From NCBI RefSeq assembly GCF_945957465.1, contig NZ_CAMFLC010000012.1:1-64000 (forward strand): a DNA stretch of 64,000 nucleotides, written 5' to 3'. The DNA is from an uncultured Leifsonia sp. GTDB taxonomy: Bacteria > Actinomycetota > Actinomycetes > Actinomycetales > Microbacteriaceae. Under the pieces are notes generated by a model. That model was not told the origin of the DNA. It ran no database searches and was given only the letters and a program-made list of their open reading frames with translations. This document shows positions 26,612 to 57,026 of this stretch, piece after piece (the first letter of the stretch is position 1; each line of letters starts with the position of its first letter). The translations under genes and the position numbers were made by a program.

Positions 26612-28105
26612 ATGCCGCTCTCGCCAGTGAGGTTCCGTCTCCTCGTCATCTCCCTCCTCGTCGTGTCGTTCCTCGGGGCGCTCGACAACACCGTCGTGAG
26701 CACCGCGATCGCCACGGTCGCCGGGCAGCTCGGGGCGCTCGAGCACATGAGCTGGATCGTCGTCGGCTACACGCTGGCGAGCACGGTCCTCCTGCCCGTG
26801 CTCGGCAAGCTCGGCGACCGGATCGGGCCCCGCGCGGTGTTCATCGCCTCGGTCGCCGTCTTCATCGTGTCGTCGGTCGCCTGCGGCTTCGCCAACGGGA
26901 TCGTCTGGCTGATCGTCGCCCGGGTGGTGCAGGGGATGAGCTCGGCCGGCCTGCAGCTGATGTCGCAGACCATCATCGCCGAGACGACGACGCCGCGGCA
27001 GCGACCGAAGTACCTCGCGATCATCGGCGCCGCCTTCCCGGTGGCGATCCTCATCGGGCCGGTCCTCGGCGGCGTCATCACCGACTACTGGGGCTGGCCG
27101 TGGGTGTTCTGGATCAACGCCCCGGTCGGTATCGTCGCGCTGGCGCTCGCGCTCGTGGCCGTGCCGCACATCGAGCCGGGCCGTGCCGGGAGGTTCGATG
27201 TCGCGGGAGCCGTCACGCTCACCATCGGGCTGGTCGCGCTCGTGCTCGCCGTGACCGGGGTCGGCGACGGGTCGCAGGCGGCCGGGACCGCGACCGAGTT
27301 CGTGATCGCCGCCGTCGCACTGGCCGCCTTCTTCGTCGTCGAGACCCGGGCCGCCGAGCCGCTGGTCCGGCTCGGCCACTTCCGCGACCGGACCGTGGCG
27401 ACCGGCACCCTGATCTCGGCCATCGTCGGCATCGGGCTGTTCTCGATCACCGCCTATCTGCCCACCTACTTCCAGATGGCGTACCGGACGACGGCGACCG
27501 TCTCGGGCCTCGTGCCGATCGCGACGGTGTTCGGGATGCTGGTCAGCAACCTCCTGACCGGCTGGCTCGTCAGCCGCACCGGGCACTACCGCCTCTATCC
27601 GCTCATCGGCACGGCCCTCGGGGCCGCAGGCCTCGGAGCGATGGCCCTGCTCCCGGCCGGATCTCCGCTCTGGGCGCCGACCGTGGCGATGGCGGTCGTC
27701 GGCCTCGGGACGGGAGCGTTCATGAGCCTCATCGTCGCCGTCGTGCAGAGCGCCGTCCCGCGCAGCGAGACGGGCACGATCACCGCGACCACGAACCTCG
27801 TGCGCCAGGTCGGGGCCACGGTCGGCACGGCGCTGATCGGCGGGATCATCGGCACGAGCGTCATCGCGCTCCTCCCGCCCGGCCTGGACGCCGCGACCCT
27901 CACGCCGGCGGTGGTGCACGCCCAGGATGCGGCGGCGCAGCAGCAGATCGCGCAGGCCTACCACGCCGTCTTCGTGCCGCTCTTCATCGCGCTCGCCGTG
28001 ACCTACCTCGTCGGCGTCGCGGCGTCCCTCCTGCTCCCGAACAGCAGGCTGTCCGACGACCGGGCTCCGGCCCCCGACGCCGCCCCCGCGTCCCTCACCA
28101 CCTGA
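26612..28105 (+). CDS. MFS transporter, DHA2/EmrB-QacA type
   Basis: 497 aa, fourteen hydrophobic segments. TM1 motif FLGALDNTVVSTAIATVAGQ, TM2 with WIVVGYTLASTVLLPVLGKL and the following DRIGPRAVF (motif A), TM4 RVVQGMSSAGLQLMSQ, TM5 PVLGGVITDYWGWPWVFWINAPVG. First gene of the run that continues with a CarA-like oxidase 25 bp downstream, so it may move glycosides or aglycones rather than drugs. No good Shine-Dalgarno before the ATG. Ends in an acidic/Pro-Ala tail. Confidence 0.9.
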   Translation: MPLSPVRFRLLVISLLVVSFLGALDNTVVSTAIATVAGQLGALEHMSWIVVGYTLASTVLLPVLGKLGDRIGPRAVFIASVAVFIVSSVACGFANGIVWLIVARVVQGMSSAGLQLMSQTIIAETTTPRQRPKYLAIIGAAFPVAILIGPVLGGVITDYWGWPWVFWINAPVGIVALALALVAVPHIEPGRAGRFDVAGAVTLTIGLVALVLAVTGVGDGSQAAGTATEFVIAAVALAAFFVVETRAAEPLVRLGHFRDRTVATGTLISAIVGIGLFSITAYLPTYFQMAYRTTATVSGLVPIATVFGMLVSNLLTGWLVSRTGHYRLYPLIGTALGAAGLGAMALLPAGSPLWAPTVAMAVVGLGTGAFMSLIVAVVQSAVPRSETGTITATTNLVRQVGATVGTALIGGIIGTSVIALLPPGLDAATLTPAVVHAQDAAAQQQIAQAYHAVFVPLFIALAVTYLVGVAASLLLPNSRLSDDRAPAPDAAPASLTT

Positions 28106-28130
28106 CCACCGCACCGCACAGGAGACCACC

Positions 28131-29735
28131 ATGACCACCCCACCGGAGACGACCGTCGCCGTCGTCGGAAGCGGCCCGATCGGAGCCGCCTACTCCCGGT
28201 TGCTGCTCGAGGCGCTGCCCGGCGCGCACGTCATCATGTTCGAGGCGGGTCCGCAGCTGACCGCGGTCGCCGGCGAGAACGTGCGCAACATCCCGGACCC
28301 GGAGGAGAAGGAGCGGGCTCGCGAGCGGTCGCAGGGGCCGCAGGCCGGCGCCTTCCGCGAGTCGCTGGGCATCCCGTCCTCCGTCGTCGCGGAGGGGATG
28401 TTCACCGCGCGCGGCGGGACGCACCTGCTCGACTTCGGCGGCCCGGGTTCGGCGCACGCGGAGAGCTTCCCGGCGGCCGCCGCCTCGACGAACGTCGGCG
28501 GGATGGGGGCGCACTGGACGGGCGCGACGCCCAGCCCGGCGTTCAGCGAGCGCATCCCGTTCATCCCCGACGGGGAGAGGGACGACCTGCTGGCCGAGGC
28601 CGTCCGGCTGCTGCACGTGCAGACCGCCGCGTTCGCCGATTCGGCGATCGGCGAGGCGATCCGGTCGCTGCTGGCGGAGGAGTTCGCCGGCGAGCTGCCC
28701 GAGGGCTACGGACCGAGCACACTGCCCGTCGCGGGAGACCCGCAACCCGACGGCACGATGCGGTGGGCGGGCACCAACACGGTCCTCGGCCCGCTGCTCG
28801 ACCCTGCGAGCCCTCTCGCCGAGCGGTTCGAGCTGCGCGACCTCTCGCTGGTGCGCCGCATCGAGCACACCGACGGCCGCGCGACCGGTGTCACCGTCGA
28901 GGACCTGCGCAGCCACGAAATCCACGCCGTGGATGCGGACCTCGTCGTCGTCGCGGCCGACGCCTTCCGCTCCCCGCAGCTGCTCTGGGCGTCGGGCATC
29001 CGCCCGCGGGCGCTCGGGCACTACCTGACCGAGCATCCCGTCGTGATCTCCACCGTGGCCCTCGATGGCGAGAGGATGGGCCGCTTCGCGACCGAGGACG
29101 ACCTCGCGCGGGAGCACGCCCGTCGTGCGGTCAATCCGGCCGACCCGGTGGCAGCGGTGAACCGCATCCCCTTCTCGGAGCCGGGCCACCCGTTCTCGCT
29201 GCAGGTGATGTACGTCGAGAACCCGCCGTTCCCGCTCGACCCGAAGCACCCGGCGGCGGGCAACCGCTGGGGCTACGTGAACATGGGCTACGGGATGCGC
29301 AAGCGTCCCCGCTTCGAGGACGCCGTGACTTTCGACGACGACGAGCCCGACTACCGCGGCCTCCCGAACATGACGATCACGTACGAGCTCACCGAGGCGG
29401 AGCGGGCGGAGATCGCCGAGGCGACTCAGCGGCTGCGCCGCGCCGGGAACGCGCTCGGCACGTTCGTCGCCGAGCCGCGGCTGCTGCCGAACGGCTCCAG
29501 CCTCCACTTCCAGGGCACGATGCGCCTGGGCGAGGAGGACGACGGCACCTCGGTCGCCGACCCGTATTCGCGGGTCTGGGGCTACGAGAACCTCGTCGTC
29601 GGCGGCAACGCGCTGATCCCGACCGCCACCGCCATGAACCCCACCCTGATGAGCGTCGCGATCGCCGTCCGCGGAGCCCGTGAGGCCGTCCGCCGGCTGA
29701 CCGCGGCCGCCGAGACGGCGCAGATCGCGCACTGA
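28131..29735 (+). CDS. GMC-type FAD oxidoreductase, CarA-like (C-glycoside 3-oxidase candidate)
   Basis: 534 aa. Dinucleotide fold VAVVGSGPIGAAYSRLLLEA at about residues 7-26, conserved STNVGGMGAHWTGATP near 121-136, second FAD strand ADLVVVAADAFRSPQLLWASGI, and catalytic end LHFQGTMRMGE (His459) with TAMNPTLMSVAIAVRGA (Asn503). This His/Asn pair is the pyranose-oxidase/GMC arrangement. CarA enzymes of Microbacterium and Arthrobacter oxidise C3 of C-glycosides with FAD. The gene is directly followed by a deglycosidase beta-subunit homologue and two TIM barrels, as in car loci. A paralogue is at 46641. Substrate inferred. Confidence 0.85.
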   Translation: MTTPPETTVAVVGSGPIGAAYSRLLLEALPGAHVIMFEAGPQLTAVAGENVRNIPDPEEKERARERSQGPQAGAFRESLGIPSSVVAEGMFTARGGTHLLDFGGPGSAHAESFPAAAASTNVGGMGAHWTGATPSPAFSERIPFIPDGERDDLLAEAVRLLHVQTAAFADSAIGEAIRSLLAEEFAGELPEGYGPSTLPVAGDPQPDGTMRWAGTNTVLGPLLDPASPLAERFELRDLSLVRRIEHTDGRATGVTVEDLRSHEIHAVDADLVVVAADAFRSPQLLWASGIRPRALGHYLTEHPVVISTVALDGERMGRFATEDDLAREHARRAVNPADPVAAVNRIPFSEPGHPFSLQVMYVENPPFPLDPKHPAAGNRWGYVNMGYGMRKRPRFEDAVTFDDDEPDYRGLPNMTITYELTEAERAEIAEATQRLRRAGNALGTFVAEPRLLPNGSSLHFQGTMRLGEEDDGTSVADPYSRVWGYENLVVGGNALIPTATAMNPTLMSVAIAVRGAREAVRRLTAAAETAQIAH

Positions 29736-29763: not shown

Positions 29764-30165
29764 ATGCTCGAAGAACAGTTGATACAGACGGCGGGCTTCC
29801 GCAATGTCGGACCGGAGGGCGCCCGTACGGGCTTCCAGCTCCGTGTGCGCAGCCCGTACTACCGGGGCCTGTGGGCCGACCTGATCGAGAAGCCCACGGT
29901 GACCGTCGACGGCGAGCGCTTCGACGGCGAGACGATCCGGTGGACGCTGCCCGCCGGCGAGTTCTCGTTCGGCGAGCTGCAGGAGTCGACCGACGCGCGC
30001 TGGCCGCTCGGGCACGCCGCCACGCTGACGGTGCCCCGCGAGGGCGGGCTCGCCCGCGGCATCCACGACGTCACGCTCGAGCTGCGGCTCCGCATGTCGT
30101 ACATCCCGGAGGAGCTCCAGCCGTCGATCTGGACCGCGTCGCGGAAGTCGGTGATCGTCAAGTGA
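29764..30165 (+). CDS. C-glycoside deglycosidase beta-subunit-like protein (CarB-like, CGDB/DUF6379)
   Basis: 133 aa beta-rich protein with RVRSPYYRGLWADLIEKPTV, the family pattern PWYRSLW-x-x-x-V of this window's other copies, then TVDGERFDGETIRWTLPAGE and LRMSYIPEELQPS. Known CarB/DgpC-type subunits are about this length and form a heteromer with a metal-dependent TIM barrel that cleaves the C-C bond of 3-oxo-C-glycosides. It overlaps the TIM-barrel gene by GTGA (beta then alpha), so a stoichiometric complex is likely. The most divergent of the five copies here. Confidence 0.8.
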   Translation: MLEEQLIQTAGFRNVGPEGARTGFQLRVRSPYYRGLWADLIEKPTVTVDGERFDGETIRWTLPAGEFSFGELQESTDARWPLGHAATLTVPREGGLARGIHDVTLELRLRMSYIPEELQPSIWTASRKSVIVK

Positions 30166-31091
30166 CCACGGAAAGAACTGTGTCGACCGACGACCTGCCC
30201 TTCGGCCTCGGCGTCTCGCTGTACTCGTACACCGACGACATCGGCGTCACCATGACCGTCGAGGAGTGCATCGAGGATGTCGCCGACCTCGGCGCCTCCG
30301 GCATCGAGATCCTGGGCGAGGGCCACATCCAGGACTACCCGAACCCGTCCACGGAATGGATCGACGCGTGGCACGCGCGCACCGAGCGGCTGGGCCTCAC
30401 GCCCACGCTGTACGGCTCGTGGATCGACACCCGCCGCTTCCCGGGCCGGGACATGACAGCGGCCGAGGGCGCCGCGCAGCTGGAGCTCGATCTGCGCCTG
30501 GCCTCCCGCCTCGGCTTCTCGTTCGTCCGGCCCAAGATCGGCGTCATATCGGAGGACCTGCGCGTCGACCCGATCTGGCAGGAGGCCGTGGAGCGCAACC
30601 TGCAGCTCGCCGCCGACCTCGACATCGTGATCTGCCCGGAGATCCACTGGCCGACGGTGATCAAGTCGCCGGTGGTCGAGGAGTACATCGCCTTCAAGGA
30701 GCGCACCGGCTCTGACCATTTCGGGCTGCTCATCGACACCGGCGTCTTCGAGCTGTCGTCGTACCCCAGACGCGGCGGCAGCGCGTCCTTCCGGATGGGC
30801 GACGGGACGGCCCGGCCGCCGGTGGTGCCGTTCGTGCCGGTGTCGGACCTGGCGGACGTGATGGAGCACACCGTCTACTTCCAGGCGAAGTTCTACGAGG
30901 TGGACGACGAGCTCATCGACCACTACATTCCCTGGCGCGACATCATCGACGTGGTCGTCGACTCCGGCTACAGCGGCTGGCTGTCGAGCGAGTACGAGGG
31001 CCACCACGAGCCGTACCGCGCGCCCGACCAGCTGCGCCGCCAGCACGCCCTCATCCGCAGCATCGCGGCCGAACGCGCCGGGAGGAGCTGA
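30162..31091 (+). CDS. TIM-barrel, C-glycoside deglycosidase alpha-subunit-like (CarC-like)
   Basis: 309 aa from the GTG overlapping the beta-subunit stop (another in-frame GTG lies at 30180). Xylose-isomerase-like barrel: FGLGVSLYSYTDDIG, CPEIHWPTV (Glu160), LLIDTGVFELSS (Asp192), VYFQAKFYEVDDE (Gln241) and SSEYEGHHEPYR (Glu277). The third position is His in the fused and other copies (HVHAKF); Gln here may alter metal choice. Conserved C-terminal SSEYEGHH and ALIRSIAAE are shared with the other alpha-like copies. Predicted partner of the preceding small protein. Confidence 0.82.
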   Translation: MTTERTVSTDDLPFGLGVSLYSYTDDIGVTMTVEECIEDVADLGASGIEILGEGHIQDYPNPSTEWIDAWHARTERLGLTPTLYGSWIDTRRFPGRDMTAAEGAAQLELDLRLASRLGFSFVRPKIGVISEDLRVDPIWQEAVERNLQLAADLDIVICPEIHWPTVIKSPVVEEYIAFKERTGSDHFGLLIDTGVFELSSYPRRGGSASFRMGDGTARPPVVPFVPVSDLADVMEHTVYFQAKFYEVDDELIDHYIPWRDIIDVVVDSGYSGWLSSEYEGHHEPYRAPDQLRRQHALIRSIAAERAGRS

Positions 31092-31093
31092 CC

Positions 31094-32572
31094 ATGCCCA
31101 ACGGACTCATCGACGAGTCGAGCCTGCGCGTCCACCCGGACGGCCTCGCGCTCTCGCTCACCATCCCCTGGTACCGCAGTCTGTGGCTGTCGTCGGTCTC
31201 GACGCTGCGGCTGACCCTCGACGGCGTCGAGGTGCCGGAGGGCGACCTGACGTTCGTGCTGGACGGCGTGCGCTACGCGGTCGCAGACCTCCCGCAGCAG
31301 AGCGACGTGCTCTGGTACCTGCAGTCGCATCCGCTGCTGATCGTCCGCCGCGACCCGGCCGTCGCGCTGGGCGAGACGCACGAGGTCGAGCTGCACGGCG
31401 AGCTCCGGCTGCCGTACATGCAGATCGCGCCGGGAACCGACGGCGGCCCCGGCGTCTACGTGCCGAACGTCGTGCACCAGCGGCTGGTGCTGACCGCGAC
31501 GGATCGTGATGCGGCGCCGCCCGCGCTGGTCGGCGACGTCCCTGCGGTCCCGGCGGCGACCGAGCACGATCCCTTCACGCTCGGCCTCACGCTCTACTCG
31601 GCCAGCGCGGAGTTCCGGGCCGGCTGGTACGACTTCGACAGCCTCCTCGACCGCGTCGCGGAGCTCGGCATCGGCCCGGGCATCGAGATCGTCGCGTCGC
31701 AGATGCTCCCGGCGTATCCGGCGCTCTCCGACGATTTCGTCTCGAAATGGCGGGCCGCCTTCGACCGGCACGGCTTCGACGCCAGCTCGTTCGGCGCCAA
31801 CCTCGACATGGGCAAGCGGCGCGACCGCGACATGACGCCCGATGAGGAGTTCGAGGTCAGCGAGCTGCTGTTCCGGGACGCCAAGACGCTCGGCTTCCCG
31901 CTGGTGCGCATCCAATCGGCGAAGCCCGAGCTGCTGCGGAGGCTGCTGCCCGTCGCCGAAGAGCTCGACTTGAAGCTGGCGTACGAGATCCACGCCCCGA
32001 TGGGACCGAACTCGCCGGAGATCATGAAGGTGCGCGACGTCTACGCCGAGCTCGACTCCCCGCTGCTCGGCTTCGTCGCCGACTTCTCGTCGACGATGCA
32101 CAGCATGTCGCCCACGCTGCTGCGCGCGGTGCGCCGCGCCGGGCTGGACGACGAGGCGGTGCAGCGCCTGCAGGACATCTGGGCGACGGACGCGCCGATG
32201 CGCGCACGTCAGGAGGAGTTCATCCAGTACCTGCGCGGTCGCGACTTCGACCCCGGCCGCCTGGGCGCCTTCGCGCACCTCGCCTTCAACATGCACGGCC
32301 ACGTCGACCCCCGCGAGTGGGCGGACATCATGCCGCAGATCCTGCACGTGCACGCCAAGTTCTACGACATCGACGAGCACGGCCAGGAGCCCGCGATCGA
32401 CTACCCGGAGCTCGTGAGGGTGTTCGTCGAGGGCGGCTACCGCGGCTACTGGTCGAGCGAGTGGGAGGGGCACGCGTTCGCCGAGCTGGGCGAGGTCGAC
32501 CCGCTCCTGCTGGTGCGGAAGCAGCACGACCTCATCCGCAGCTCGATGCGTGCGGTGACGGCCCCGGTCTGA
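31094..32572 (+). CDS. Natural fusion of deglycosidase beta domain and TIM-barrel alpha domain
   Basis: 492 aa. Residues 1-135 are a beta-subunit-like domain ([55 protein letters not shown]). From about 155 a full TIM barrel follows with metal ligands Glu298 (YEIHAPMGPN), Asp330 ([12 protein letters not shown]), His420 (HVHAKFYDIDEHG) and Glu456 (SSEWEGHAF). Known enzymes use two separate chains, so this is a single-chain form. The barrel closely resembles the separate protein at 51695 and the small domain resembles that at 53542. In an operon 2 bp behind the previous TIM barrel. Confidence 0.85.
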   Translation: MPNGLIDESSLRVHPDGLALSLTIPWYRSLWLSSVSTLRLTLDGVEVPEGDLTFVLDGVRYAVADLPQQSDVLWYLQSHPLLIVRRDPAVALGETHEVELHGELRLPYMQIAPGTDGGPGVYVPNVVHQRLVLTATDRDAAPPALVGDVPAVPAATEHDPFTLGLTLYSASAEFRAGWYDFDSLLDRVAELGIGPGIEIVASQMLPAYPALSDDFVSKWRAAFDRHGFDASSFGANLDMGKRRDRDMTPDEEFEVSELLFRDAKTLGFPLVRIQSAKPELLRRLLPVAEELDLKLAYEIHAPMGPNSPEIMKVRDVYAELDSPLLGFVADFSSTMHSMSPTLLRAVRRAGLDDEAVQRLQDIWATDAPMRARQEEFIQYLRGRDFDPGRLGAFAHLAFNMHGHVDPREWADIMPQILHVHAKFYDIDEHGQEPAIDYPELVRVFVEGGYRGYWSSEWEGHAFAELGEVDPLLLVRKQHDLIRSSMRAVTAPV

Positions 32573-32579: not shown

Positions 32580-33782
32580 ATGAACCAGGAGATTGCGGAC
32601 GTGGTCCGCGGGAGTCTGCGCGGGGCCGTCGACGTCAGGGAGTCCGACAGCGGTCTGACCCCGTTGCGATTGCCGGCGAGGGCGCTCGGTCAGGCCGACT
32701 CGGATTGGATGCGGATCGCCGCGGAGCAGGCCTCCGGTGTGCGGTGCGAATTCGAGACGGCGGCTACCTGGATCGAGCTGACGGTGGAGACGACCGGGCT
32801 GTACCTGCCCTGGCTGCCCGACGACGTGCGGTGGGCGGTGTTCTCCGCGACCATCGACGGCGAGGCCGTGGGCGATGCACGGGTGACGGGCGGAGCGGAG
32901 CTGCATCTCGGCGAGCCCGGCGGAACCCGGTTCGTGGCGGGCGAGCCGGCCGTCGTGCGGTTCGAGCTCGGAGGGACAGGCGAGAAGGAGCGCCGGGTCG
33001 GCGTATGGCTGCCTCAGACCGAGATCGTCGAGATCCGCGACGTGCGCGCCGACTCGCCGCTCCGGCCGGCTGCGCCGAGCGGTCAGCTGCGCTGGTGGCA
33101 TCACGGCAGTTCGATCAGCCACTGCATCGAGGCGGAGACACCTCTCGGCGTGTGGCCGGTCGCTGCGGCGGAACGGCTGGGCATCGAGGTCACCAATCTC
33201 GGCTTCGCCGCGAACGCGCACCTCGATCAATTCACGGCACGGGCGATGCGCGATTCGGGTGCGGACCTGTTCAGCCTGAAAGCCGGCATCAACATCGTGG
33301 GCGCCGACACGATGAAGCGGCGGACGTTCGTCCCCGCCGTCCACGGCTTCCTCGACACGATCCGCGACGGTGCTCCGACGGCCCCGATCCTCGTGATCTC
33401 ACCGATCATCTGCCCGATGCACGAGGACACGCCGGGCCCGACGGTGACCGACCCCGTGACGGGCGAGCGGCGCGGAACGCCGATCGAGACGCCCGACGTG
33501 TTCGACGCGCCGCTCACCCTGCGTTCGGTCCGCGAGATCCTGCGCGACATCGTCCAGACCCGTTCCGCGGAGGATCCGGCCCTCTTCTACCTGGATGGGC
33601 TCGAACTCTTCGGGGAGGCCGATCTCGGCGAGCTGCCCGACGGGCTGCACCCGAGCCCGGCCGGGTACCTGCTGATGGCAGACCGGTTCGCGGGGTCGTC
33701 GGTCGTCTCCGACTGGATCGCCGCCGCCGGGAAGCATGCCGGCCCGGCCGTCGAGGCCGGACAGCCGACGGTCACCGCGTGA
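32580..33782 (+). CDS. SGNH/GDSL-type hydrolase with N-terminal carbohydrate-type beta domain
   Basis: 400 aa. An N-terminal beta-sandwich (residues 1-165) precedes an SGNH hydrolase: block I HHGSSISHC with the nucleophile Ser, block II NLGFAANAHLD, block III-like KAGINIVGAD and the terminal DGLHPSPAGY carrying the Asp-x-x-His pair. Family members deacylate sugars or acyl-glycosides; here it may remove malonyl or acetyl groups from plant glycosides. Starts 7 bp after the fusion gene, with GAGGAGCGG as Shine-Dalgarno. No signal peptide, so cytoplasmic. Confidence 0.85.
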   Translation: MNQEIADVVRGSLRGAVDVRESDSGLTPLRLPARALGQADSDWMRIAAEQASGVRCEFETAATWIELTVETTGLYLPWLPDDVRWAVFSATIDGEAVGDARVTGGAELHLGEPGGTRFVAGEPAVVRFELGGTGEKERRVGVWLPQTEIVEIRDVRADSPLRPAAPSGQLRWWHHGSSISHCIEAETPLGVWPVAAAERLGIEVTNLGFAANAHLDQFTARAMRDSGADLFSLKAGINIVGADTMKRRTFVPAVHGFLDTIRDGAPTAPILVISPIICPMHEDTPGPTVTDPVTGERRGTPIETPDVFDAPLTLRSVREILRDIVQTRSAEDPALFYLDGLELFGEADLGELPDGLHPSPAGYLLMADRFAGSSVVSDWIAAAGKHAGPAVEAGQPTVTA

Positions 33783-33792: not shown

Positions 33793-34707
33793 ATGACCGA
33801 CACCGACTTCGACATCCGCTCCCTCCCGTTCCCCGAGGCCCTGCGGTGGCTGCGGGAGCATGGCGAGCCGCGCGATCCCCGGCCCGACATCGACTCGGCG
33901 GCGCTCATCCGCCGCTTCCCGCGCCTTGCCGGCGTTCGGACCCGCGAGCTCACGATCGACGCTCCGCACGGCCCGCAGCCGGCCCGCGCCTATCGTGACG
34001 AGACCGCGGAGGCATCCGGTCGCGGGCTCGTGTGGGTGCACGGCGGAGCCTTCATCGGCGGCCACCTCGACATGCCCGAGTCGAACTGGGTGGCGCTCGA
34101 GCTGGCCGCGCGGGGGATCCCCGTGCTCGCGGTCGACTACACCAAGTGCCTCGGCGATGTGCACTTTCCCGTTCCCTCGGACGACGTGCTCGCCGCGTGG
34201 CGGTATGCGCGCGCGAACAGCGCCGAGTTGCTGGGCGTGGATCCGGACACGCTGCTGCTCGGCGGCGCGAGTGCGGGAGGCAACCTGAGCGCTGGCGTGG
34301 TGGCGCGGCTGCGGGATGCCGGCGAGACGATGCCCGCCGGGCTCGCGCTCGTGTATCCGGCGCTCGATCCGGACGGCGCCCATCCCGGCGAGACCCCCGA
34401 CCCGGAGTCCCCCTTCGCGCGGCTCTCGCTCAACTTCGCCGGCTCGCCGCAGGCGCTGCACGACCCGCACGCCTTCCCGGGTCTCGGTTCGATCGGCGGC
34501 TTCCCGCCCACGCTCGTGGTCGTCTGCGAGCACGACGGCCTGCGTCCATCGGGGGAGGCCTTCGCCCGGAGGCTCGCGGCTGCGGGCCGCGACAGCACAC
34601 TCCACGTGGAGCCCGACGCCGACCACGGCCACATCAACGAGCCGTCGGATCCCGCCGCCTCGCGCACCCTCGCCGCCATCGCCTCCTGGATTGCCGGCCG
34701 CCGCTGA
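33793..34707 (+). CDS. Alpha/beta hydrolase, hormone-sensitive-lipase-like
   Basis: 304 aa. HGGAF oxyanion motif (VWVHGGAFIGGH), nucleophile elbow GGASAGGN, Asp in CEHDGLRPSGEAF and His in DADHGHINEP give the full triad of HSL-type carboxylesterases. The ATG at 33793 has GAGGAGCC ahead and follows the SGNH gene by 10 bp; a longer ORF from 33736 overlaps that gene. Likely an esterase for acylated glycosides or for a downstream lactone. Last gene before a strong symmetric hairpin (repeat copy C). Confidence 0.88.
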   Translation: MTDTDFDIRSLPFPEALRWLREHGEPRDPRPDIDSAALIRRFPRLAGVRTRELTIDAPHGPQPARAYRDETAEASGRGLVWVHGGAFIGGHLDMPESNWVALELAARGIPVLAVDYTKCLGDVHFPVPSDDVLAAWRYARANSAELLGVDPDTLLLGGASAGGNLSAGVVARLRDAGETMPAGLALVYPALDPDGAHPGETPDPESPFARLSLNFAGSPQALHDPHAFPGLGSIGGFPPTLVVVCEHDGLRPSGEAFARRLAAAGRDSTLHVEPDADHGHINEPSDPAASRTLAAIASWIAGRR

Positions 34708-48239: not shown

Positions 48240-48638
48240 GTGATCCCCGACCGCATCATCGAGCAGGGAACGCTCACGACGACGGGCACGCGTGCTGCCG
48301 TCGACGTGCGCATCCCCTGGTACCGCGCACTCCCGGCGTCCTGCATCGCAGGCGCGACGCTGTCCATCGACGGCGTGCCCGCTCCGGCCGAGACGCTCCG
48401 CTGGGAGCTCAACGGCAAGGAGCGCACCTTCGACGACATGAAGGACGACACCGAGGAGTGGTGGTTCCCGCTCGACTCGGCCGTGCTCTCCGGTGACATC
48501 CCGGTCGCGGCCGACGACAGCGAGCACGAGGTGGCGGTCGACCTGACCGTGTTCATCCCGTACATCGTGATCGGCGACGACGAAGTGCTCCACATCGAGG
48601 AGCACGACACCAAGACCATGAAGGCGGTGACGGCATGA
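48240..48638 (+). CDS. C-glycoside deglycosidase beta-subunit-like protein (CarB-like)
   Basis: 132 aa, GTG start with AAGGAGGA ahead. DVRIPWYRALPASCIAGATL carries the PWYRxL signature; LSIDGVPAPAETLRWELNG and FIPYIVIGDDEVLHIEEH complete the domain. Overlaps the TIM-barrel gene by ATGA, beta before alpha, and follows a CarA-like oxidase, so oxidase, beta and alpha are contiguous. A 51-bp AT-richer gap before it contains a direct repeat TTAGTG (48185, 48202) that could be regulatory. Confidence 0.82.
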   Translation: MIPDRIIEQGTLTTTGTRAAVDVRIPWYRALPASCIAGATLSIDGVPAPAETLRWELNGKERTFDDMKDDTEEWWFPLDSAVLSGDIPVAADDSEHEVAVDLTVFIPYIVIGDDEVLHIEEHDTKTMKAVTA

Positions 48639-49750: not shown

Positions 49751-50706
49751 CCCGCGACGCTCCGATCAAGTGGAGCTACATGGACCACTGGCGCGCGAAC
49801 GGCCCCCGCGGCCCGTACGACCAGTGGCACTCCCGCCAGACGATGACCCGCTTCCTCCGCCAGGTGAGGGCCGTCGGCTTCGACGCCATCGACACCTTCG
49901 ACTTCCGGATCTGGCAGATCCTGGAGCAGTACGGCTCGGTCGCGAACTACCAGGAGTTCGTGCAGGAGCAGGGCCTCGAGCGGATCGTCAACACCTTCCA
50001 CGGCGTGTACTACGACCCCGAGCGCTACGCCCCCGAGGTGCCGGCGACGCACGACGCCATCATCGAGGACTTCAAGCTCACCCTCGACCTGTGGTCGGGC
50101 ATCCAGCTCGACAACATCATCGTCATGCCCGGCTCGCGCTACTTCGACGAGCAGGGCGTGAGCGACGACGGCCTCAAGCACGCGGCCGACATCTGGGGGA
50201 GGGTCGGCGAGCTCACGCAGCAGTACGGCGTCAACCTGACCTGTCACCACGAGTTCTACGGCGGCATCCGCACCCGCAAGCAGATCGATGCCTTCTACGC
50301 GTACGCCGACCCGCAGTACGTGAAGTTCTTCGTCGACACGGCCCAGCACTGCATCGCCGACGTCGACCCGGTCGCCGTGTACGAGGCGCACCACGAGCGC
50401 GTCACGGGCTTCCACTTCAAGGACACCCGCACCAAGGACGTCAATAACGACTACCGCCTGTGGCCCGACGCCGAGCTCTCGGCCGTCACGACCGAGAAGT
50501 GGTTCTACGAGATGGGCACCGCGGAGGGCCTGGTCGACTTCGAGTCGATGATGCGCTCCGTGCGCGACCACGGCTACACCGGCTGGATCAGCGTCGAGCA
50601 CGACAAGGCCGACAAGCTCGGCGGGGACTACTCGGAGAGCACCGCCGTCGCGCGCTGGTACGCCAAGAACGTCTTGGATCGGATCTACCTGGAGAAGACG
50701 GCATGA
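49747..50706 (+). CDS. TIM-barrel sugar isomerase/epimerase-like protein
   Basis: 319 aa, ATGA overlap on both sides. Metal-site segments LTCHHEFYGG (Glu), KFFVDTAQHCIADVDP (Asp), TGFHFKDTRTKDVNN (His) and WISVEHDKADKLG (Glu). Unlike the CarC-like copies it has a distinctive N-terminus IKWSYMDHWRANGPRGPYDQ. Part of four consecutive TIM-barrel genes (48635-52729). Could epimerise or isomerise the keto-sugar released by deglycosylation; unproven. Confidence 0.83.
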   Translation: MTRDAPIKWSYMDHWRANGPRGPYDQWHSRQTMTRFLRQVRAVGFDAIDTFDFRIWQILEQYGSVANYQEFVQEQGLERIVNTFHGVYYDPERYAPEVPATHDAIIEDFKLTLDLWSGIQLDNIIVMPGSRYFDEQGVSDDGLKHAADIWGRVGELTQQYGVNLTCHHEFYGGIRTRKQIDAFYAYADPQYVKFFVDTAQHCIADVDPVAVYEAHHERVTGFHFKDTRTKDVNNDYRLWPDAELSAVTTEKWFYEMGTAEGLVDFESMMRSVRDHGYTGWISVEHDKADKLGGDYSESTAVARWYAKNVLDRIYLEKTA

Positions 50707-51701
50707 GCGGCATCCGGTGGGGCTACGCCCTGAACCAGTGGGACACCAACATCGACGCGTTCGTGCGCAAGCGCGACCACGAGCGTGCGTTCAAGACGAT
50801 CTCGATCAGCGGCTTCTCGGGCGTCGAGCTCACCGCGGAGAGCTTCGGCCCGTGGGAGCCGCTCGGCTCGCCCGAGCAGATCGCCAACCTCTACGGGTCG
50901 CTCGACGGGTTCCGCCGGGTGCTCGCCGCCTGCGCGCTCGACGGTGTGTCCAGTTACGTCTACGACCCGTTCATCGGGTTCGACGTGGAGATGGGCCGGG
51001 GACCCGACCCGCTCGACCCCGAGGCCGCGCCCCGGATCACCGCGACCGCCGTCTGGTTCGCCGAGGCCCTCGCCGCTCTCGGCGGCGCCGTGCTCGTGGT
51101 CCGTCCGTGCGGGTCGGCCTGGCAGACCGGTGCCCTCGACGACGAGAAGATCGCGACACTGGCGGCGCTCTGGAACGCCGTCGGTGCGGCCATCGCCCCC
51201 TCCGGAGTCGCGCTGGCGCTCCACTTCGACTTCCTGTCGGCGCTCCGGCTCGACGACGGCCTCGCCCGGCTGCTCGACGCGACGGACCCCGGGCTCGTCG
51301 GGCTGGCACTCGACACGGCCGAGTTCGCGGTGGCAGGAGCCGACCCGGTCGCGGTGCTCGAACGCCACGCCGACCGGGTCCGCCACGTCCAGCTGAAGAA
51401 CGCATACGACGTCGTCGACGACGAAGAAGCCCTCACCCCGCACGCCGAGCAGTTCGTGCGCACCGAGGGCGGCGCCCGCCGCATCCAGCGGTGGTTCTTC
51501 GAGCCGACGGACGAAGGCGGACTGGTCGACTTCCCGTCGTTCGTCCGCGCACTCGCAGAGAGCGGCTATGCCGGCTGGATCGTCGTCGAGTCCGACCAGA
51601 GCCCCCACCCGGCCGAGAGCGCGATGGTGAGCGGCTGGTACGTGCAGAACGTCCTCGCACCGATCGTCGAGACGACGCGAAAGGAAGTGCCGACATGGTG
51701 A
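50703..51701 (+). CDS. TIM-barrel sugar isomerase/epimerase-like protein
   Basis: 332 aa, ATGA overlap with the previous gene. Same fold as its neighbour but the first ligand region reads LALHFDFLSALRLDD, with Asp rather than Glu; the others are LALDTAEFAVAGADPV (Asp), RHVQLKNAYDVVDD (His) and WIVVESDQSPHP (Glu). Barrel start IRWGYALNQWDTNIDAF is typical of inosose-dehydratase-like members. Overlaps the next gene by seven bases (its ATG lies inside the last codons). Function in the pathway is unknown. Confidence 0.8.
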   Translation: MSGIRWGYALNQWDTNIDAFVRKRDHERAFKTISISGFSGVELTAESFGPWEPLGSPEQIANLYGSLDGFRRVLAACALDGVSSYVYDPFIGFDVEMGRGPDPLDPEAAPRITATAVWFAEALAALGGAVLVVRPCGSAWQTGALDDEKIATLAALWNAVGAAIAPSGVALALHFDFLSALRLDDGLARLLDATDPGLVGLALDTAEFAVAGADPVAVLERHADRVRHVQLKNAYDVVDDEEALTPHAEQFVRTEGGARRIQRWFFEPTDEGGLVDFPSFVRALAESGYAGWIVVESDQSPHPAESAMVSGWYVQNVLAPIVETTRKEVPTW

Positions 51702-52729
51702 ACGACGGGATCGCCGGTACCGGGATCGAACTCGGGACCACCCTCTACTCGATGACGAGCGAGTTCGCGGCGGGGATCTACACCCCGGAGACGCTGATCG
51801 CGGCCGTCGCCGAGAACGGGATCGGGCCCGGTGTGGAGTTCAACATCGCCCAGCTGCTGCGCACCTACCCGGACGTCGACGACGCGTTCGTGAAGCTCTG
51901 GTTCGACTCGCTCGAGAAGTACGAGCTGGAGCCGAGCGCCATCGGCACGAACCTCGACATGGGCCGCCGCAAGGACCGCGACATGACGCCGGACGAGGAG
52001 CACGACTTCCTCGCCCGCCAGCTGAAGACCGCGCACACGCTCGGGTTCACGCGGGTCGTCATCCGCTCGGCCGGCCGGGAACTGCTGCGCAGCCTCCTGC
52101 CGCTCGCCGAGGAGTACGACCAGCGCCTCGGCTACGAGATCCACGCACCGCAGGGCCCGAACGACCCCAAGGTCCTCGGCATCCGCGAGCTGTACGACGA
52201 GCTGGGCAGCGACCGGCTCGGCTTCACGGCCGACTTCTCCTCGACGATGCACAGCCTGTCGCCGACCCTGCTCTCGCAGCTGGAGAAGATGGGCATGGAT
52301 CCGAAGCACTTCGCCGTGATGGACGAGATCTGGCGCGAGCCCACGCCGATGCACGTGCGCAACCAGAAATTCGAGGACTACCTCACGAGCGAAGGCGTCG
52401 ACCCCGTCGGGTTCGGGCCGTTCACCCGGCTGGCGTTCAACATGCACGGCCTCGTGCCGCCGGAGGAGTGGCTGGACATCATGCCGCAGATCTTCCACGT
52501 GCACGCCAAGTTCTTTGGACTCGATGCGAACGGGCAGGAGCCCGCCATGGACATCCCCCGCATCGTCCGCCAGTTCGTCGAGGGCGGCTACCGGGGATAT
52601 CTGTCGAGCGAGTGGGAGGGTCACGCCTTCCAGGACCTCGGGGAGGCCGACCCGATCGACCTCGTGAAGAAGCAGCACGCGCTCATGCGGCGCACCATCG
52701 AAGACGCCGTCGCCGGCGTCCCGGCCTGA
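51695..52729 (+). CDS. TIM-barrel, C-glycoside deglycosidase alpha-subunit-like, split homologue of the fusion
   Basis: 344 aa. Very similar to the barrel of the 31094 fusion: [33 protein letters not shown] (Glu148), [18 protein letters not shown] (Asp180), [40 protein letters not shown] (His270) and [13 protein letters not shown] (Glu306). The matching small domain is separate at 53542, after an NTF2-like gene, so order is alpha then beta, opposite to the other pairs. Its ATG sits inside the previous stop region. Confidence 0.84.
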
Positions 52730-52749: not shown

Positions 52750-53532
52750 ATGTCGGACACCACCATCGAGACGTCCATCTCGGACCTCGTCGCCGAAGTC
52801 GCGCGGCTGCGCGAGGACGTCACCGCGGCGCAGCGCCTCGCACAGCGGGCCGAGGATCGCGGGCAGGTCGAGAACCTGTTCAACCGCTACATGTTCCTGC
52901 ACAACGCCTTCGAGGACGAGCAGATCATCCCGCTCTGGGTCAAGGAGGGCACCGAGGGCATCCGCGCCCGGTACACCAACGCCGGGCAGTACACCACGTG
53001 GGAGAGCGTCACCCGCTATCACCGCGACCGGCCGCACCCGGTCGGCAAGCTCATCCTGCACGCGGCCACCACTCCGGTGATCGAGGTCGCCGCCGACGGC
53101 GAGACCGCCAAGGGCGTGTGGATCATGGCCGGCACCGAGTCGGGCCTGACCGATCCGGCCGTCGCCGAGGAGTTCCCGGACATGTACTCGCCCAACGAGG
53201 TGCTCGGCAAGAAGGTCTGGGCGCACTGGGTGTGGTGCAAGTACGCCGTCGACTTCCTCAAGCAGGACGGCGAGTGGAAGTTCTGGAAGTTCCGCTGCTA
53301 CGAGCTGGCGCGGGCGCCGTTCGAGGAGAACTGGATCAGCTTCGGCCTGAAGAACCAGGGCGCGTTCGACCTCGACCTGATGTACTTCGGCGACGACGGC
53401 AAGCCCGTCTTCATGCCCCCGGCCGACGAGCCGGCGCCCAGCGAGAACCACCCGTACAGCCCGGAGACCGTCCAGAAGCTCGAGCCGGCGCCTCCGGTGC
53501 CGTACGAGCACTTCGTCGACACCTACGAGTAG
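52750..53532 (+). CDS. NTF2-like protein with long N- and C-terminal extensions
   Basis: 260 aa. N-terminal coiled-coil-like helix ([20 protein letters not shown]), then an SnoaL_4-type NTF2 domain: [75 protein letters not shown], followed by a Pro-rich tail. Shine-Dalgarno GAAGGAG, 20 bp after the alpha-like TIM barrel and 9 bp before the beta-like gene, hence lying inside an alpha/beta pair. It could be a third subunit or an isomerase/dehydratase for the sugar fragment. Function unknown. Confidence 0.82.
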
Positions 53533-53541: not shown

Positions 53542-53958
53542 ATGGCGACGCACAACTCCCTGTTCTCCGAGAAGGACGTCCGGCGCACCGACGACGGCAT
53601 CGCCGTCTCGGTGCAGCTGCCCTGGTACCGCAGCCTCTGGCTGTCCGCCGTCGACGATGTCGCCGCGACCGTGAACGGCGTGGAGATCCCGCGCGACGAC
53701 CTCCGCTTCGAACTGAACGGCCGCAGCTACCGCATCCAGGAGCTGCCCGAGCAGTCCGAGACCCTGTGGTTCGTGGCCGACCGTCCCGACGTCGTGATCC
53801 CGCTGGACCACGCGCCCGCGGCAGGGGAGAAGCTCACGGTGGAGGTGGTCCTCACGATGCGCCTGCTCTACATGCAGATCATGCCGGGCGCCGACGGCGG
53901 CCCGGGCCGCTACGTGACCAACCGGGTCCCGGTCGAGCGCGAGCTGGTGCTGGCATGA
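53542..53958 (+). CDS. C-glycoside deglycosidase beta-subunit-like protein (CarB-like)
   Basis: 138 aa. [59 protein letters not shown] and [20 protein letters not shown] are nearly the same, segment for segment, as the N-terminal domain of the 31094 fusion, its closest relative here. Shine-Dalgarno AGGAG before the ATG at 53542. The stop overlaps the Gfo/Idh gene (ATGA). Expected partner: the TIM barrel at 51695. Confidence 0.85.
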
Positions 53959-55136
53959 CGCTGCGGGTGGCCATGGTCGGCTACGGGTTCATGGGCGCTG
54001 CGCACTCGGTGGGCTGGCGGCAGGCGCCGCACGTGTTCGACCTCCCGGAGGCCGTGGAGATGGCGGTGATCGTGGGCCGCACCGAGAGCGCGGTCGCCGA
54101 TGCCGGCCGCAGATGGGGCTGGGCGGAGCACGCCACGGACTGGCGGGAGGTGATCGCCCGCGACGACATCGACCTGGTCGACATCGTCACGCCCGGCGAC
54201 TCGCACGCCGAGATCGCGATCGCGGCGCTGGAGGCCGGCAAGCACGTGCTGTGCGAGAAGCCGCTCGCCAACACGGTCGAGGAGGCCGAGGCGATGGCCG
54301 CGGCGGCGGCCCGGGCGGCCGAGCGCGGCGTCCGGGCGATGGTCGGCTTCACCTACCGGCGCGTGCCAGCCGTCACCCTGTTGCGCGACCTGATCGCCGA
54401 GGGCACGATCGGGCGCGTCCAGCAGGTACGGGCGGCGTACCGGCAGGACTGGCTGGTCGATCCCGAGATGCCGCTCGCCTGGCGGCTGCAGAAAGAACAC
54501 GCCGGCTCGGGTGCGCTGGGGGACATCGGCGCGCACATCGTCGACATGACCCAGTTCGTCACCGGCCAGGCCGTCGAAGCCGTCTCCGGCACGGTGGACA
54601 CCATCGTGAAGCAGCGCCCGCTCCAGGCCTCGGGCTCCGGCCTCGCGGGGCAGGCGGGCGAGGGATACGGCGACGTGACCGTCGACGACCTCGCGATCTT
54701 CACCGGCAGGCTGACCGACGGGGCACTGGTCTCGTTCGAGGCCACCCGCTTCGCGACCGGCCGCAAGAACGCGCTGTCCGTCGAGGTGTCGGGAACGTCC
54801 GGGGCCCTCCGGTTCGACCTGGAGGAGCTCAACATCCTGAAGTTCTACGACCGCGCCGACCGCGCCGATCTGCAGGGCTTCAGGACGATCCTGGTGACCG
54901 AGCCGGTGCACCCTTACGTGGCCAACTGGTGGCCGGCCGGGCACCTGCTCGGGTACGAGCACGGGTTCGTGCACCAGGTCGTGGATCTCGTCGGCGCGAT
55001 CGCCGAGGGGACCGACCCCCATCCGACCTTCGCCGAGGGGCTGAGCGTACAACGAGTGTTGGCGGCCGTCGAGGCCAGCTCGGAGAATCAGTCGTCGTGG
55101 GTTCGCGTGGGTGCGGACGCCGCGGTCGCCGTCTGA
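53955..55136 (+). CDS. Gfo/Idh/MocA-family NAD(P)-dependent sugar oxidoreductase
   Basis: 393 aa. Rossmann start [20 protein letters not shown], conserved [20 protein letters not shown] and [15 protein letters not shown] (the catalytic Lys in the EKP motif), then the alpha/beta substrate domain with [17 protein letters not shown]. Family members oxidise or reduce sugars, including 3-keto-glycosides; the gut DgpA enzyme that oxidises C-glycosides is in this family. Here it could reduce the released 3-keto sugar or act as an alternative oxidase. ATGA overlap with the beta-like gene. Confidence 0.9.
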
Positions 55137-55149
55137 AGAGGAGAACGAA

Positions 55150-56157
55150 ATGCCGCGTCCGATCACACTGTTCACCGGCCAGTGGGCCGACCTGCCGTTC
55201 GAGGAGGTGGCCGGCCTCGCCGGCGAGTGGGGCTACGACGGTCTCGAGATCGCCTGCTGGGGTGACCATCTCGACGTGTCCCGCTGGGACGACGCCGACT
55301 ACGTGCAGTCGCGGAAGGACATCCTGGAGCGCAACGGGCTGAAGGTCTGGACGATCTCCAACCACCTCGCCGGGCAGGCCGTCTGCGACGACCCGATCGA
55401 CCAGCGGCACCGCGACATCCTGAACGACCGGGTGTGGGGCGACGGCGACCCGGAGGGCGTGCGGCAGCGCGCGGCCGAGGAGCTGAAGCTGACCGCCCGG
55501 ATGGCCGCCGCGCTCGGGGTGAAGACCGTCACCGGCTTCACCGGGTCGTCGATCTGGAAGGCCGTCGCGATGTTCCCGCCGGCCTCCGACGAGTGGATCG
55601 CCGCCGGCTACCGCGACTTCGCGGACCGCTTCCATCCGATCCTCGACGTGTTCGAGGAGGTGGGGGTGCGGTTCGCGCTGGAGGTGCACCCGTCCGAGAT
55701 CGCCTACGACTACTGGACCGCCAAGGCGACCGTGGAGGCGATCGGCCACCGCGAGAGTTTCGGCATCAACTTCGACCCGTCGCACTTCATGTGGCAGCAG
55801 CTCGACCCGGTGGCGTTCGTGCTCGACTTCGCCGACCACATCTTCCACGTGCACGTGAAGGAGTCGATCACCAACCTCGACGGCCGCAACGGCGTGCTCG
55901 GCTCGCACCTGCCCTGGGCCAACCCGCGCCGCGGCTGGACGTTCGTGTCGACCGCGCACGGCGAGGTGCCGTGGGAGCCGATCTTCCGCGCCCTCAACTT
56001 CATCGGCTACACCGGCCCGACCTCCGTCGAATGGGAGGACGCCGGAATGGACCGCCTGCAGGGGGCGCCGGAGGCGATCGCCTTCGTGCGCGAGCTCAAC
56101 GCGATCACCCCGCCCGATGCCGCCTTCGACGCGGCCTTCTCGACGAAATCCGACTGA
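55150..56157 (+). CDS. TIM-barrel sugar phosphate isomerase/epimerase-like protein
   Basis: 335 aa from the ATG at 55150, Shine-Dalgarno GAGGAGAA. Metal-site segments FALEVHPSEIAYDY (Glu), GINFDPSHFMWQQLDP (Asp), HVHVKESITNLDGRNG (His) and TSVEWEDAGMDRLQG (Glu). This subtype is regularly next to Gfo/Idh and ThuA genes in carbohydrate loci, as here: Gfo/Idh 13 bp upstream, ThuA-like overlapping downstream (TGATG). Likely isomerises a keto-sugar intermediate. Confidence 0.87.
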   Translation: MPRPITLFTGQWADLPFEEVAGLAGEWGYDGLEIACWGDHLDVSRWDDADYVQSRKDILERNGLKVWTISNHLAGQAVCDDPIDQRHRDILNDRVWGDGDPEGVRQRAAEELKLTARMAAALGVKTVTGFTGSSIWKAVAMFPPASDEWIAAGYRDFADRFHPILDVFEEVGVRFALEVHPSEIAYDYWTAKATVEAIGHRESFGINFDPSHFMWQQLDPVAFVLDFADHIFHVHVKESITNLDGRNGVLGSHLPWANPRRGWTFVSTAHGEVPWEPIFRALNFIGYTGPTSVEWEDAGMDRLQGAPEAIAFVRELNAITPPDAAFDAAFSTKSD

Positions 56158-57026
56158 TGCAGGACCTGTTGAACGTCCTCATCCTCTCGGGCCACATGAC
56201 CCGCGAGCACGACAACGAGCATCGCAGCTTCCGGCAGCACAACGTCTGGCTGACGCAGCTGCTGGAGGACACCGGGCGCTTCCGGGTGCGGGTCGTGGAG
56301 GACCCGCGCGGGCTCGGCGCGGAGATCATCGACAAATATGACGTCGTGATCGTCGTGTTCGAGGGTCGCGACGGCTACCACGAGAAGGCGGTCGGCTTCG
56401 GCGCCGAGACGGATGCCGCGCTCCTGAAGTTCGTGCACGACGACGGCAAGGGCATCGTCTGGTTCCACGGCTCGGCCGCGCAGGAGGACGACTGGGGCTA
56501 CCCGGACGAGTACAACCTCCTGCGCGGGTCGCGGATGACGGTGGCCGGCGGCCTCCGCCCACGGCCGTGGGGCGAGGCGCAGCTCGACACGGTCGAGCCG
56601 CGGCACGCGATCACCGACGGCATCAGCGCGCGCTGGACGGTCACCGGCGACGACATCCTCACCGGTGTCGAGATCCTGGACGGCGCCCAGGTGCTGCTGA
56701 CCACCTTCGACGACCTGGAGTCGTACGAGAAGGCGCCGGTCTGGCCGATGTCGCACTACCCCGTGGCCATCCCGGAGGAGGGAATCGCCGCCCTCCCGGG
56801 CATGAACACCGACCAGCCGATCGCCTGGATCAACGAGTACGGCGCCGGCCGCTCGTTCACCATCACGATCGGCCACGACATCGACACGTTCCGCCGCATC
56901 GAGTTCATCCGGATGTTCCCGCGCGGCGTCGAGTGGGCCGCCAGCGGCGAGGTCACCCTGAACGGCCCCGACCGCCGCGGCGAACGCCGCTTCCTCCCCT
57001 GGCCGTACTACAACCACGAGGGCTGA
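56157..57026 (+). CDS. ThuA-like (trehalose-utilisation-type) protein
   Basis: 289 aa, class-I glutamine-amidotransferase-like fold: LNVLILSGHMTREHDNEHRS, YDVVIVVFEGRDGYHEKAV, GIVWFHGSAAQEDDWGYPDE and FTITIGHDIDTFRRIEFIRM. ThuA/ThuB in rhizobia convert sugars through 3-keto derivatives, so a role in handling a 3-keto-sugar product fits this locus. The start overlaps the TIM-barrel stop (TGATG). Last plus-strand gene of the island before repeat copy D. Confidence 0.86.
   Translation: MQDLLNVLILSGHMTREHDNEHRSFRQHNVWLTQLLEDTGRFRVRVVEDPRGLGAEIIDKYDVVIVVFEGRDGYHEKAVGFGAETDAALLKFVHDDGKGIVWFHGSAAQEDDWGYPDEYNLLRGSRMTVAGGLRPRPWGEAQLDTVEPRHAITDGISARWTVTGDDILTGVEILDGAQVLLTTFDDLESYEKAPVWPMSHYPVAIPEEGIAALPGMNTDQPIAWINEYGAGRSFTITIGHDIDTFRRIEFIRMFPRGVEWAASGEVTLNGPDRRGERRFLPWPYYNHEG

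Follow-up and report, generated by a model that had tools for sequence, protein, structure and literature searches.

Can a single bacterial locus hold candidates for each step from a C-glycoside to glucose? The question is raised by a 64,000-nt stretch of DNA (hereafter the window) from an uncultured Leifsonia sp., in which an island for C-glycoside catabolism, built on recurring oxidase/beta/alpha modules, had been predicted at positions 26612-57026. The host is a soil-type actinobacterium with a Leifsonia-type genome. C-glycosides, plant pigments among them, hold their sugar by a C-C bond that is difficult to cut. They withstand ordinary glycosidases, and how they are degraded completely in soil has, to our knowledge, been little described. 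The predicted island is supported by the present analysis, and we consider it highly probable that the locus serves C-glycoside utilisation, with two oxidases, four C-glycoside deglycosidases (CGDs), a hydratase, a reductase and, as a non-lyase fifth CGD-fold protein, the product of a gene termed X57. All reactions in this organism are read here from gene content, homology, residue patterns, synteny and co-occurrence. Features lie on the forward strand unless stated otherwise.

Both predicted modules are present with identical gene order, the first running from a GMC-type FAD oxidase (GMC1, 28131-29735) through a CGDB-family beta gene (29764-30165) to a TIM-barrel alpha gene (30180-31091), and the second from GMC2 (46641-48188) through a CGDB gene (48240-48638) to a TIM-barrel alpha gene (48635-49750). 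The oxidases had both been called CarA-like, which holds for GMC2: it falls inside the CarA/PsG3Ox group of C-glycoside oxidases in the tree, matches PsG3Ox (PDB 7qf8, E 2.9e-242) and CarA (7dve, E 7.1e-229), and retains the residues aligned with the His/Asn pair H440/N484 of PsG3Ox. GMC1 lies outside the CarA branch, on a separate branch of its own (quick tree of 33 of 67 rows, SH-aLRT support only); it is 43% identical to GMC2, matches 8qve (E 1e-107), 7qf8 (E 1.7e-104) and 7dve (E 3.6e-99), and also keeps the His/Asn pair. By sequence it belongs with the same pyranose/C-glycoside oxidases, though further out than GMC2.

The assignment of the small module proteins to the CGDB family, which had been singled out beforehand as one point to check, is borne out: against a curated Pfam cut-off of 27.6 bits for CGDB (PF19906), the betas of CGD1 (29764-30165) and CGD2 (48240-48638) score 122.8 and 54.2 bits. 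Two CGD sets had been proposed; both are real, but the count was too low, as the window holds four PF19906 domains above cut-off and four CGD sets alongside the two oxidases, while the PF19906 model has no match in 14 control genomes. One additional set is CGDfus (31094-32572, 492 aa), in which PF19906 and PF01261 domains share one frame and which is AgCGD2-like (7dnm alpha, E 3.3e-130; beta, E 3e-27); its branch support is 73 in one tree and 93 in another, both trees being quick ones with SH-aLRT support only. The other is CGD3, whose alpha subunit (51695-52729) is the AgCGD2 orthologue and the partner of the beta subunit at 53542-53958 (PF19906, 56.2 bits). Neither of these two extra sets was part of the original prediction, nor were the hydratase/reductase pair and the altered fifth CGD. 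A natural beta-alpha fusion was considered as a novelty and rejected, since PDB 8QRZ is already one.

The catalytic His149 and Glu307 of the alpha domain and the Tyr of the beta domain are retained in all four sets, as are the alpha metal ligands E147, D179, K271 and E305; the fifth AgCGD2 ligand, H269, is present in CGDfus, CGD2 and CGD3. In the CGD1 alpha subunit (30180-31091; 8qrz, E 1.4e-98), position 269 is Gln in 76/76 rows, a replacement at a metal ligand that is required in PuCGD and MiCGD. Of 234 rows examined for the beta domain, almost all have its P-x-Y-R, W and Y. A single row each of CGDfus and CGD3 deviates at catalytic residues, and both look like misbinned X57 genes. The CGD2 alpha subunit (48635-49750) has Gly or Ala at position 249 in 43/43 rows, replacing Met249 as in C6-acting CGDs, and the available part of an earlier report ties a change at this position to C6 action (PMC8563793). 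By sequence, CGD2 looks C6-type and CGD3 C8-type. The beta loop gives no basis for inference, because the same report notes four inserted residues in C6-type enzymes, whereas the CGD2 loop is shorter than that of CGD3 in our alignment.

Candidates for the steps after cleavage adjoin the CGD3 beta gene, and the three genes stay next to one another across genera. TIMe (55150-56157) aligns full-length, though as a distant relative (residues 16-328; E 2.8e-33, 118.9 bits), with PDB 8ro4, and is a likely 2-hydroxy-3-keto-glucal hydratase, the name under which 8ro4 was deposited; it also matches PDB 2ZDS (E 2e-150), deposited as 'Putative DNA-binding protein', for which it suggests a function. The neighbouring Gfo/Idh oxidoreductase (53955-55136) is Lgd-like, scoring 363.8 bits against the NCBIfam levoglucosan dehydrogenase model NF052479, below its cut-off of 650, and is likely a 3-keto-glucose reductase. 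A sequence of elimination, hydration and reduction is described for levoglucosan (PMC7676230) and, as part of a four-step pathway, for C-glycosides (PMC13273386), in the portions of both sources that are available. Other TIM barrels are encoded nearby, namely TIMa (25690-26484, sugar isomerase-like; PF01261, 110.2 bits), TIMb (45850-46644, hydroxypyruvate-isomerase-like; PF01261, 139.3 bits; TIGR03234, 161.9 bits, below its cut-off) and, by homology, the inosose-dehydratase-like TIMc (49747-50706) and TIMd (50712-51701); TIMb, TIMc or TIMd could act as the hydratase in place of TIMe.

Apart from the importer, the accessory genes that had been listed for the island were all recovered with Pfam. 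These are a GH78 alpha-L-rhamnosidase (22868-25666; PF17389, 394.5 bits), GH43 (39121-40662; PF04616, 274.4 bits), GH3 (40659-42824; PF00933, 227.1 bits), a GDSL-type hydrolase (32580-33782; PF13472, 36.1 bits), an alpha/beta-hydrolase of the Abhydrolase_3 type (33793-34707; PF07859, 131.1 bits), the Gfo/Idh gene and a ThuA-like gene (56157-57026; PF06283, 87.7 bits). The predicted importer was recovered in part and is of ABC type, with a solute-binding protein (35858-37249) and two permeases (37315-38271 and 38276-39118) matching in Pfam, but no ABC ATPase domain was found among the island proteins scanned with Pfam. An MFS gene (26612-28105) was considered as an importer and rejected, as its nearest relatives are DHA2/EmrB-type exporters (225.4 bits, just below the cut-off of 230.2), and its product may export rather than import. 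Also present are a LysR-type regulator on the reverse strand (34829-35764; PF00126, PF03466), SnoaL-like (45445-45837; PF12680, 51.9 bits) and SnoaL_4-like (52750-53532; PF13577, 58.7 bits) proteins, and a gene with weak GH106 similarity (42821-45448; PF17132 over its first half, E 0.0036, below cut-off), which carries an in-frame TGA at 43616-43618 and whose frame is open in 12/12 relative rows (9 genomes). Upstream lies a GH39-like glycosidase (20637-22094; PF01229, 30.3 bits, cut-off 26), which adjoins the island in a second genome (G026) too. Genes conserved alongside the island in Leifsonia reach to about 63.6 kb, beyond the originally predicted end at 57026, and include an aromatic module (60425-63638) assigned by homology, with an extradiol-dioxygenase-like (60425-61444), a cyclase-like (61447-62457) and an FAD monooxygenase gene (62505-63638).

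With C-glycoside oxidases, CGDs and adjoining hydratase and reductase candidates in one locus, the island could encode the whole series of oxidation, C-C cleavage and hydration, ending with reduction to glucose. The glycosidases would trim outer sugars, GMC1 and GMC2 would oxidise the C-linked sugar at C3, and CGD1, CGDfus, CGD2 and CGD3, which probably serve differently placed C-glycosides, would cut the C-C bond to yield the aglycone and 2-hydroxy-3-keto-glucal. TIMe would hydrate this glycal to 3-keto-glucose, which the Gfo/Idh protein would reduce to glucose, while the aglycone might perhaps leave the cell through the MFS protein or undergo ring opening by the oxygenases encoded at 60-64 kb. 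Some such oxidases and CGDs act on O-glycosides too, hence C-glycosides need not be the sole substrates. That the island works mainly on O-glycosides or anhydrosugars via 3-keto chemistry, with CGD activity being secondary, we regard as improbable: PurA also converts O-glycosides (PMC12724307, available in part), the reductase is levoglucosan-dehydrogenase-like, and GH78, GH43 and GH3 act on O-glycosides, yet the four beta subunits carry the Tyr specifically required for C-C cleavage and GMC2 belongs to the CarA/PsG3Ox clade, whose members favour C-glycosides. With candidates for all steps in a single locus, four neighbouring CGDs among them, the whole route and the C6/C8 division of labour become testable in culture-collection strains.

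Just beyond the originally predicted range, on the reverse strand, lies X57 (57165-58475). Its product stays below every Pfam cut-off (Pfam CGDB only at E 0.037), but its reading as an unrelated hypothetical protein is rejected by the hhalign match to CGDfus, which covers beta and alpha domains over 423 columns (probability 99.9, E 2.3e-32). The five metal ligands are retained in X57 orthologues, whereas catalytic His149 is replaced by Gln and Glu307 by Gly in 28/28 alpha rows (27 genes), the beta Tyr is replaced by Ile in 32/32 rows, and the residues contacting the aglycone in AgCGD2 are changed. Across the row sets used in this analysis some genomes occur twice, L033 being also G008, L109 also G011 and L098 also G017. 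Lyase action on the C-C bond by the known mechanism is unlikely for such a protein, and X57 most likely does not cleave C-glycosides; a keto-sugar is the probable ligand of its metal site.

Could X57 simply be a decaying CGD copy? Its dN/dS of 0.20-0.38 is somewhat above the 0.12-0.22 of CGDfus, and the copies of G019 and Naasia L049 are broken over more than one frame. The ratio is nevertheless well below 1, indicating purifying selection, the replacements are fixed in every aligned row, and Q149 and G307 recur in four distant homologues. Among 299 family genomes sampled (E 1e-30), X57 occurs in 15/20 CGD carriers and 0/279 others, and 15/16 multi-copy CGD carriers retain it. Decay is hence disfavoured, and we give it very little credence. 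Instead, with confidence slightly above even, we propose that X57 founds an undescribed CGD-fold subfamily, in which the metal site is retained, the acid/base pair and aglycone-activating Tyr have become Gln, Gly and Ile, and the protein performs a non-lyase job needed by C-glycoside islands, such as isomerisation of keto-sugars or 2-keto/3-keto glycosides, or ligand sensing.

Two narrower readings differ on what this job would be. The fixed pattern of catalytic replacements would fit a sensor or binding pseudoenzyme that acts in regulation with the adjoining ROK-family protein, itself probably a regulator (58929-60212, on the same strand as X57; PF00480, 190.8 bits). In 9/10 relative rows showing both genes, X57 and ROK share a strand, and the gap between them is often no more than about 130 nt; however, ROK is about 3 kb away in G011 and on the opposite strand in L049, a mere sensor would not need five metal ligands, and known ROK regulators bind sugars themselves. 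We hold this reading to be less likely than not. We find it rather doubtful that X57 is another enzyme on the same fold, for instance a metal-dependent isomerase of 2-keto/3-keto glycosides or keto-sugars that rescues an off-path 2-keto product. An intact metal site, a lost general base and purifying selection speak for it, and 2-keto C-glycosides do arise and are not cleaved by PuCGE, as stated in the available text of PMC13273386. On the other hand, the 2,3-isomerisation can run spontaneously and rapidly, depending on conditions (PMC10628242, available in part), so that an enzyme may be unneeded, and the changed aglycone-contact residues mean that X57 may bind no glycoside at all. As a CGD homologue with replaced residues, X57 is a natural experiment on the residues that make a C-C lyase. 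No description of X57 was found in the literature searched, which is not proof of absence; no paper on the DUF6379/PF19906/CGDB family by title was among the matches listed, and the PDB codes 8QRZ, 8QVC, 8UN2 and 8UMC led to unrelated work only.

How, then, does the island compare with known systems? The original prediction held these to be much smaller, which is not supported, as the source strains of AgCGD2, PsG3Ox and the 8QRZ protein share the core with four CGD sets each. Many other members of the Microbacteriaceae and Micrococcaceae have the core too, and the idea of a unique or exceptionally large island is thereby rejected. Arthrobacter globiformis NBRC 12137 (AgCGD2) and P. siccitolerans 4J27 (PsG3Ox) each carry X57 as well. 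In A. globiformis, the 327-residue 7DNM stretch of AgCGD2 is identical to its CGD3 alpha orthologue (L090), and the core order CGD1, CGDfus, LysR, solute-binding protein, permeases, TIMb, GMC2, CGD2, CGD3 is shared with the window, which has MFS-GMC1, the GH43/GH3/GH106-like block and TIMc/TIMd in addition. Five PF19906 matches are found in that strain, one being the X57 beta domain below cut-off, and the X57 alpha domain is present too. The P. siccitolerans PsG3Ox locus has the core as in the window. Earlier papers, in their available parts, describe only part of each locus, naming two CGDs from A. globiformis (PMC8563793) and two CGD pairs next to the PsG3Ox oxidase (PMC10646112). The 8QRZ protein, whose alpha stretch of 292 residues matches L057 of M. 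testaceum NS220 without a difference, is a beta-alpha fusion like CGDfus and yet an orthologue of CGD1, which is split in the window, where the fused protein is another paralogue. The DgpA/DgpBC and DfgA/B systems of gut bacteria have beta and alpha subunits homologous to those of the window, but these systems oxidise by a Gfo/Idh enzyme, where the window has FAD oxidases. The levoglucosan pathway LgdA/B1/B2/C, as far as the available text describes it (PMC7676230), shares the glycal intermediate and uses TIM-barrel and Gfo/Idh enzymes, whereas the first bond cut there is a C-O bond in an anhydrosugar, unlike the C-C bond that the window's CGDs would cut.

The C-glycoside catabolic island of the window is well supported as a conserved island of a known kind, more complete than the original prediction had it. 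Both of the oxidase/beta/alpha modules proposed there are borne out, and a search of the whole 4.06-Mb host genome with PF19906, the Pfam profile of the CGDB family of C-glycoside deglycosidase (CGD) beta subunits, returned four matches (at 29767, 31139, 48297 and 53584), all above the cut-off and all within the island. The match at 31139 is part of a 492-aa protein that also carries the TIM-barrel alpha domain, and this gene, CGDfus (31094-32572), is a natural beta-alpha fusion; the match at 53584 is separated by a SnoaL_4 gene from its partner alpha gene, at 51695. Two SnoaL-like genes (45445-45837 and 52750-53532) are interspersed with the CGD genes, and many relatives have them too. A GH106-like gene of the region has an in-frame TGA (43616-43618). 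All 12 relative rows, from nine genomes, have an open frame, and the stop reflects either recent inactivation or an error in sequencing.

The island is not unique, as its core gene order (CGD1, CGDfus, LysR, the solute-binding protein, two permeases, TIMb, GMC2, CGD2, CGD3, Gfo/Idh, TIMe) is found again in relatives, with some variation. A genome scan with CGDfus yielded 107 relatives, 80 of which were kept, from Microbacterium, Leifsonia, Agromyces, Arthrobacter and Pseudarthrobacter, among others. PF19906 was found in 9/28 genomes of the genus sample (eight with at least four copies), 20/299 of the family sample (16 with at least three), 16/396 of the order sample and 5/396 of the phylum sample (three above cut-off), and is therefore patchy and, in the Microbacteriaceae, usually multi-copy. 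Whole-genome matches number five in A. globiformis NBRC 12137, five in P. siccitolerans 4J27, four in M. testaceum NS220 and six in M. trichothecenolyticum DSM 8608, and in all of these except M. testaceum one match is the beta half of X57, a fifth CGD homologue (57165-58475, minus strand). Naasia aerilata NBRC 108725 has 13 matches, part of them in stretches that are nearly identical between the two ends of the chromosome record. In Arthrobacter sp. StoSoilB13 the core lies on a circular 1.0-Mb plasmid typed as non-mobilizable, where the CGD2 alpha gene is in two pieces, and this location makes horizontal spread of the core plausible.

The two CarA-like FAD oxidases, GMC1 (28131-29735) and GMC2 (46641-48188), retain in alignments, with positions counted by hand, the His/Asn pair reported as essential in PsG3Ox (PMC10646112); in the oxidase tree GMC2 groups with CarA, and GMC1 forms a separate branch. 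C-glycoside lyase action is reported to yield 2-hydroxy-3-keto-glucal (PMC13273386), which is described for levoglucosan breakdown too, as a product that is hydrated and reduced by a Gfo/Idh enzyme to glucose (PMC7676230). The TIM-barrel protein TIMe (55150-56157) matches PDB 8RO4, named 2-hydroxy-3-keto-glucal hydratase, and the Gfo/Idh protein of the island is levoglucosan-dehydrogenase-like, with a score below cut-off. TIMe is also very close to PDB 2ZDS (E 2e-150), whose deposited name, 'Putative DNA-binding protein', may be wrong. Extradiol-dioxygenase-like, cyclase-like and FAD monooxygenase genes (60425-63638), kept beside the island in several Leifsonia genomes, possibly serve aglycone breakdown.

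Searches with X57 gave no Pfam family at a limit of E 0.01 and, at E 0.001, none from NCBIfam; at a looser Pfam limit, a Toxofilin-like domain (E 0.028), CGDB (E 0.037) and AP_endonuc_2 (E 0.052) appear, all below cut-offs. Comparison with the CGDfus profile spans both domains (probability 99.9, E 2.3e-32, 423 columns), and X57 forms a tree group of its own (25 rows, support 98). Judged by sequence, X57 is a previously unannotated, altered CGD subfamily. Its orthologues retain E147, D179, H269, K271 and E305. Gln149 and Gly307 are present in 28/28 of their alpha rows (27 genes, one row being a cut copy of another), and the same Gln/Gly pair occurs in four distant homologues (28-38% identical); two other weak matches, which carry His and Glu, were rejected as ordinary CGDs. 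In 32/32 beta rows the beta-subunit Tyr is replaced by Ile, at a site that, from the P-x-Y-R motif, is putatively the Tyr39-beta position. Cleavage by the known C-C lyase mechanism is unlikely for X57, since published changes at the same positions lower it: PuCGD reportedly keeps 10.4% with His to Ala and 49.8% with Glu to Ala, and MiCGD 1.8% and 1.9%, respectively (PMC8563793), and Tyr39-beta to Phe is reported to cost about 12,000-fold on C-glucosides (PMC10628242). Sensing together with ROK, the probable regulator gene beside X57, and metal-dependent isomerisation are two leads to its role.

X57 was found in 15/299 genomes of the family sample (E 1e-30) and 6/28 of the genus sample, every one a CGDB carrier (of which there are 20 and 9, respectively); two Leifsonia genomes (G006, G015) have CGDs without it. 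Its dN/dS is 0.20-0.38 (15 pairs), whereas that of CGDfus is 0.12-0.22 (6 pairs). X57 is broken over two frames in G019, and it lies in pieces in different frames in N. aerilata (L049). Of roughly 20 genes for which the two halves were both seen, nine are fused, 10 split and one on opposite strands. X57 is fused in the window, whereas opposite strands carry its beta and alpha genes in L168 (plasmid NZ_AP024649.1), L170, L171 and L172; A. globiformis, P. siccitolerans and the StoSoilB13 plasmid show this layout.

The alpha tree, which took in 93 of 250 rows, resolves four groups, with CGDfus adjoining CGD3/AgCGD2. CGDfus is a single full-length open frame in 82/90 matches, full-length with a stop in one (L051) and partial in seven; in two Geodermatophilus loci its orthologue is two adjoining genes. 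CGD1 is fused in 68/79 rows and split in 11 (including eight genomes, the window among them), a further 11 rows showing no pair. With residues read from an alignment numbered by AgCGD2 (PDB 7DNM), CGD1 alpha (30180-31091) and its orthologues have Gln for the metal ligand His269 in 76/76 rows, the 8QRZ protein included, and lack the stretch 241-249 (gaps in 76/76 rows at 241, 242 and 248, and in 75/76 at 249). CGDfus is mixed, with Q123 in 84/85 rows and M249 in 83/85; Gln149 and Gly307 appear in a single row each of CGDfus and CGD3, apparently X57 genes binned there. In CGD2 alpha, position 249 is Gly or Ala in 43/43 rows, a replacement that has been tied to C6-acting enzymes (PMC8563793). CGD3 alpha retains R123, P241 and M249 in 41/42 rows, matching at all three positions AgCGD2, which acts on a C8-glycoside.
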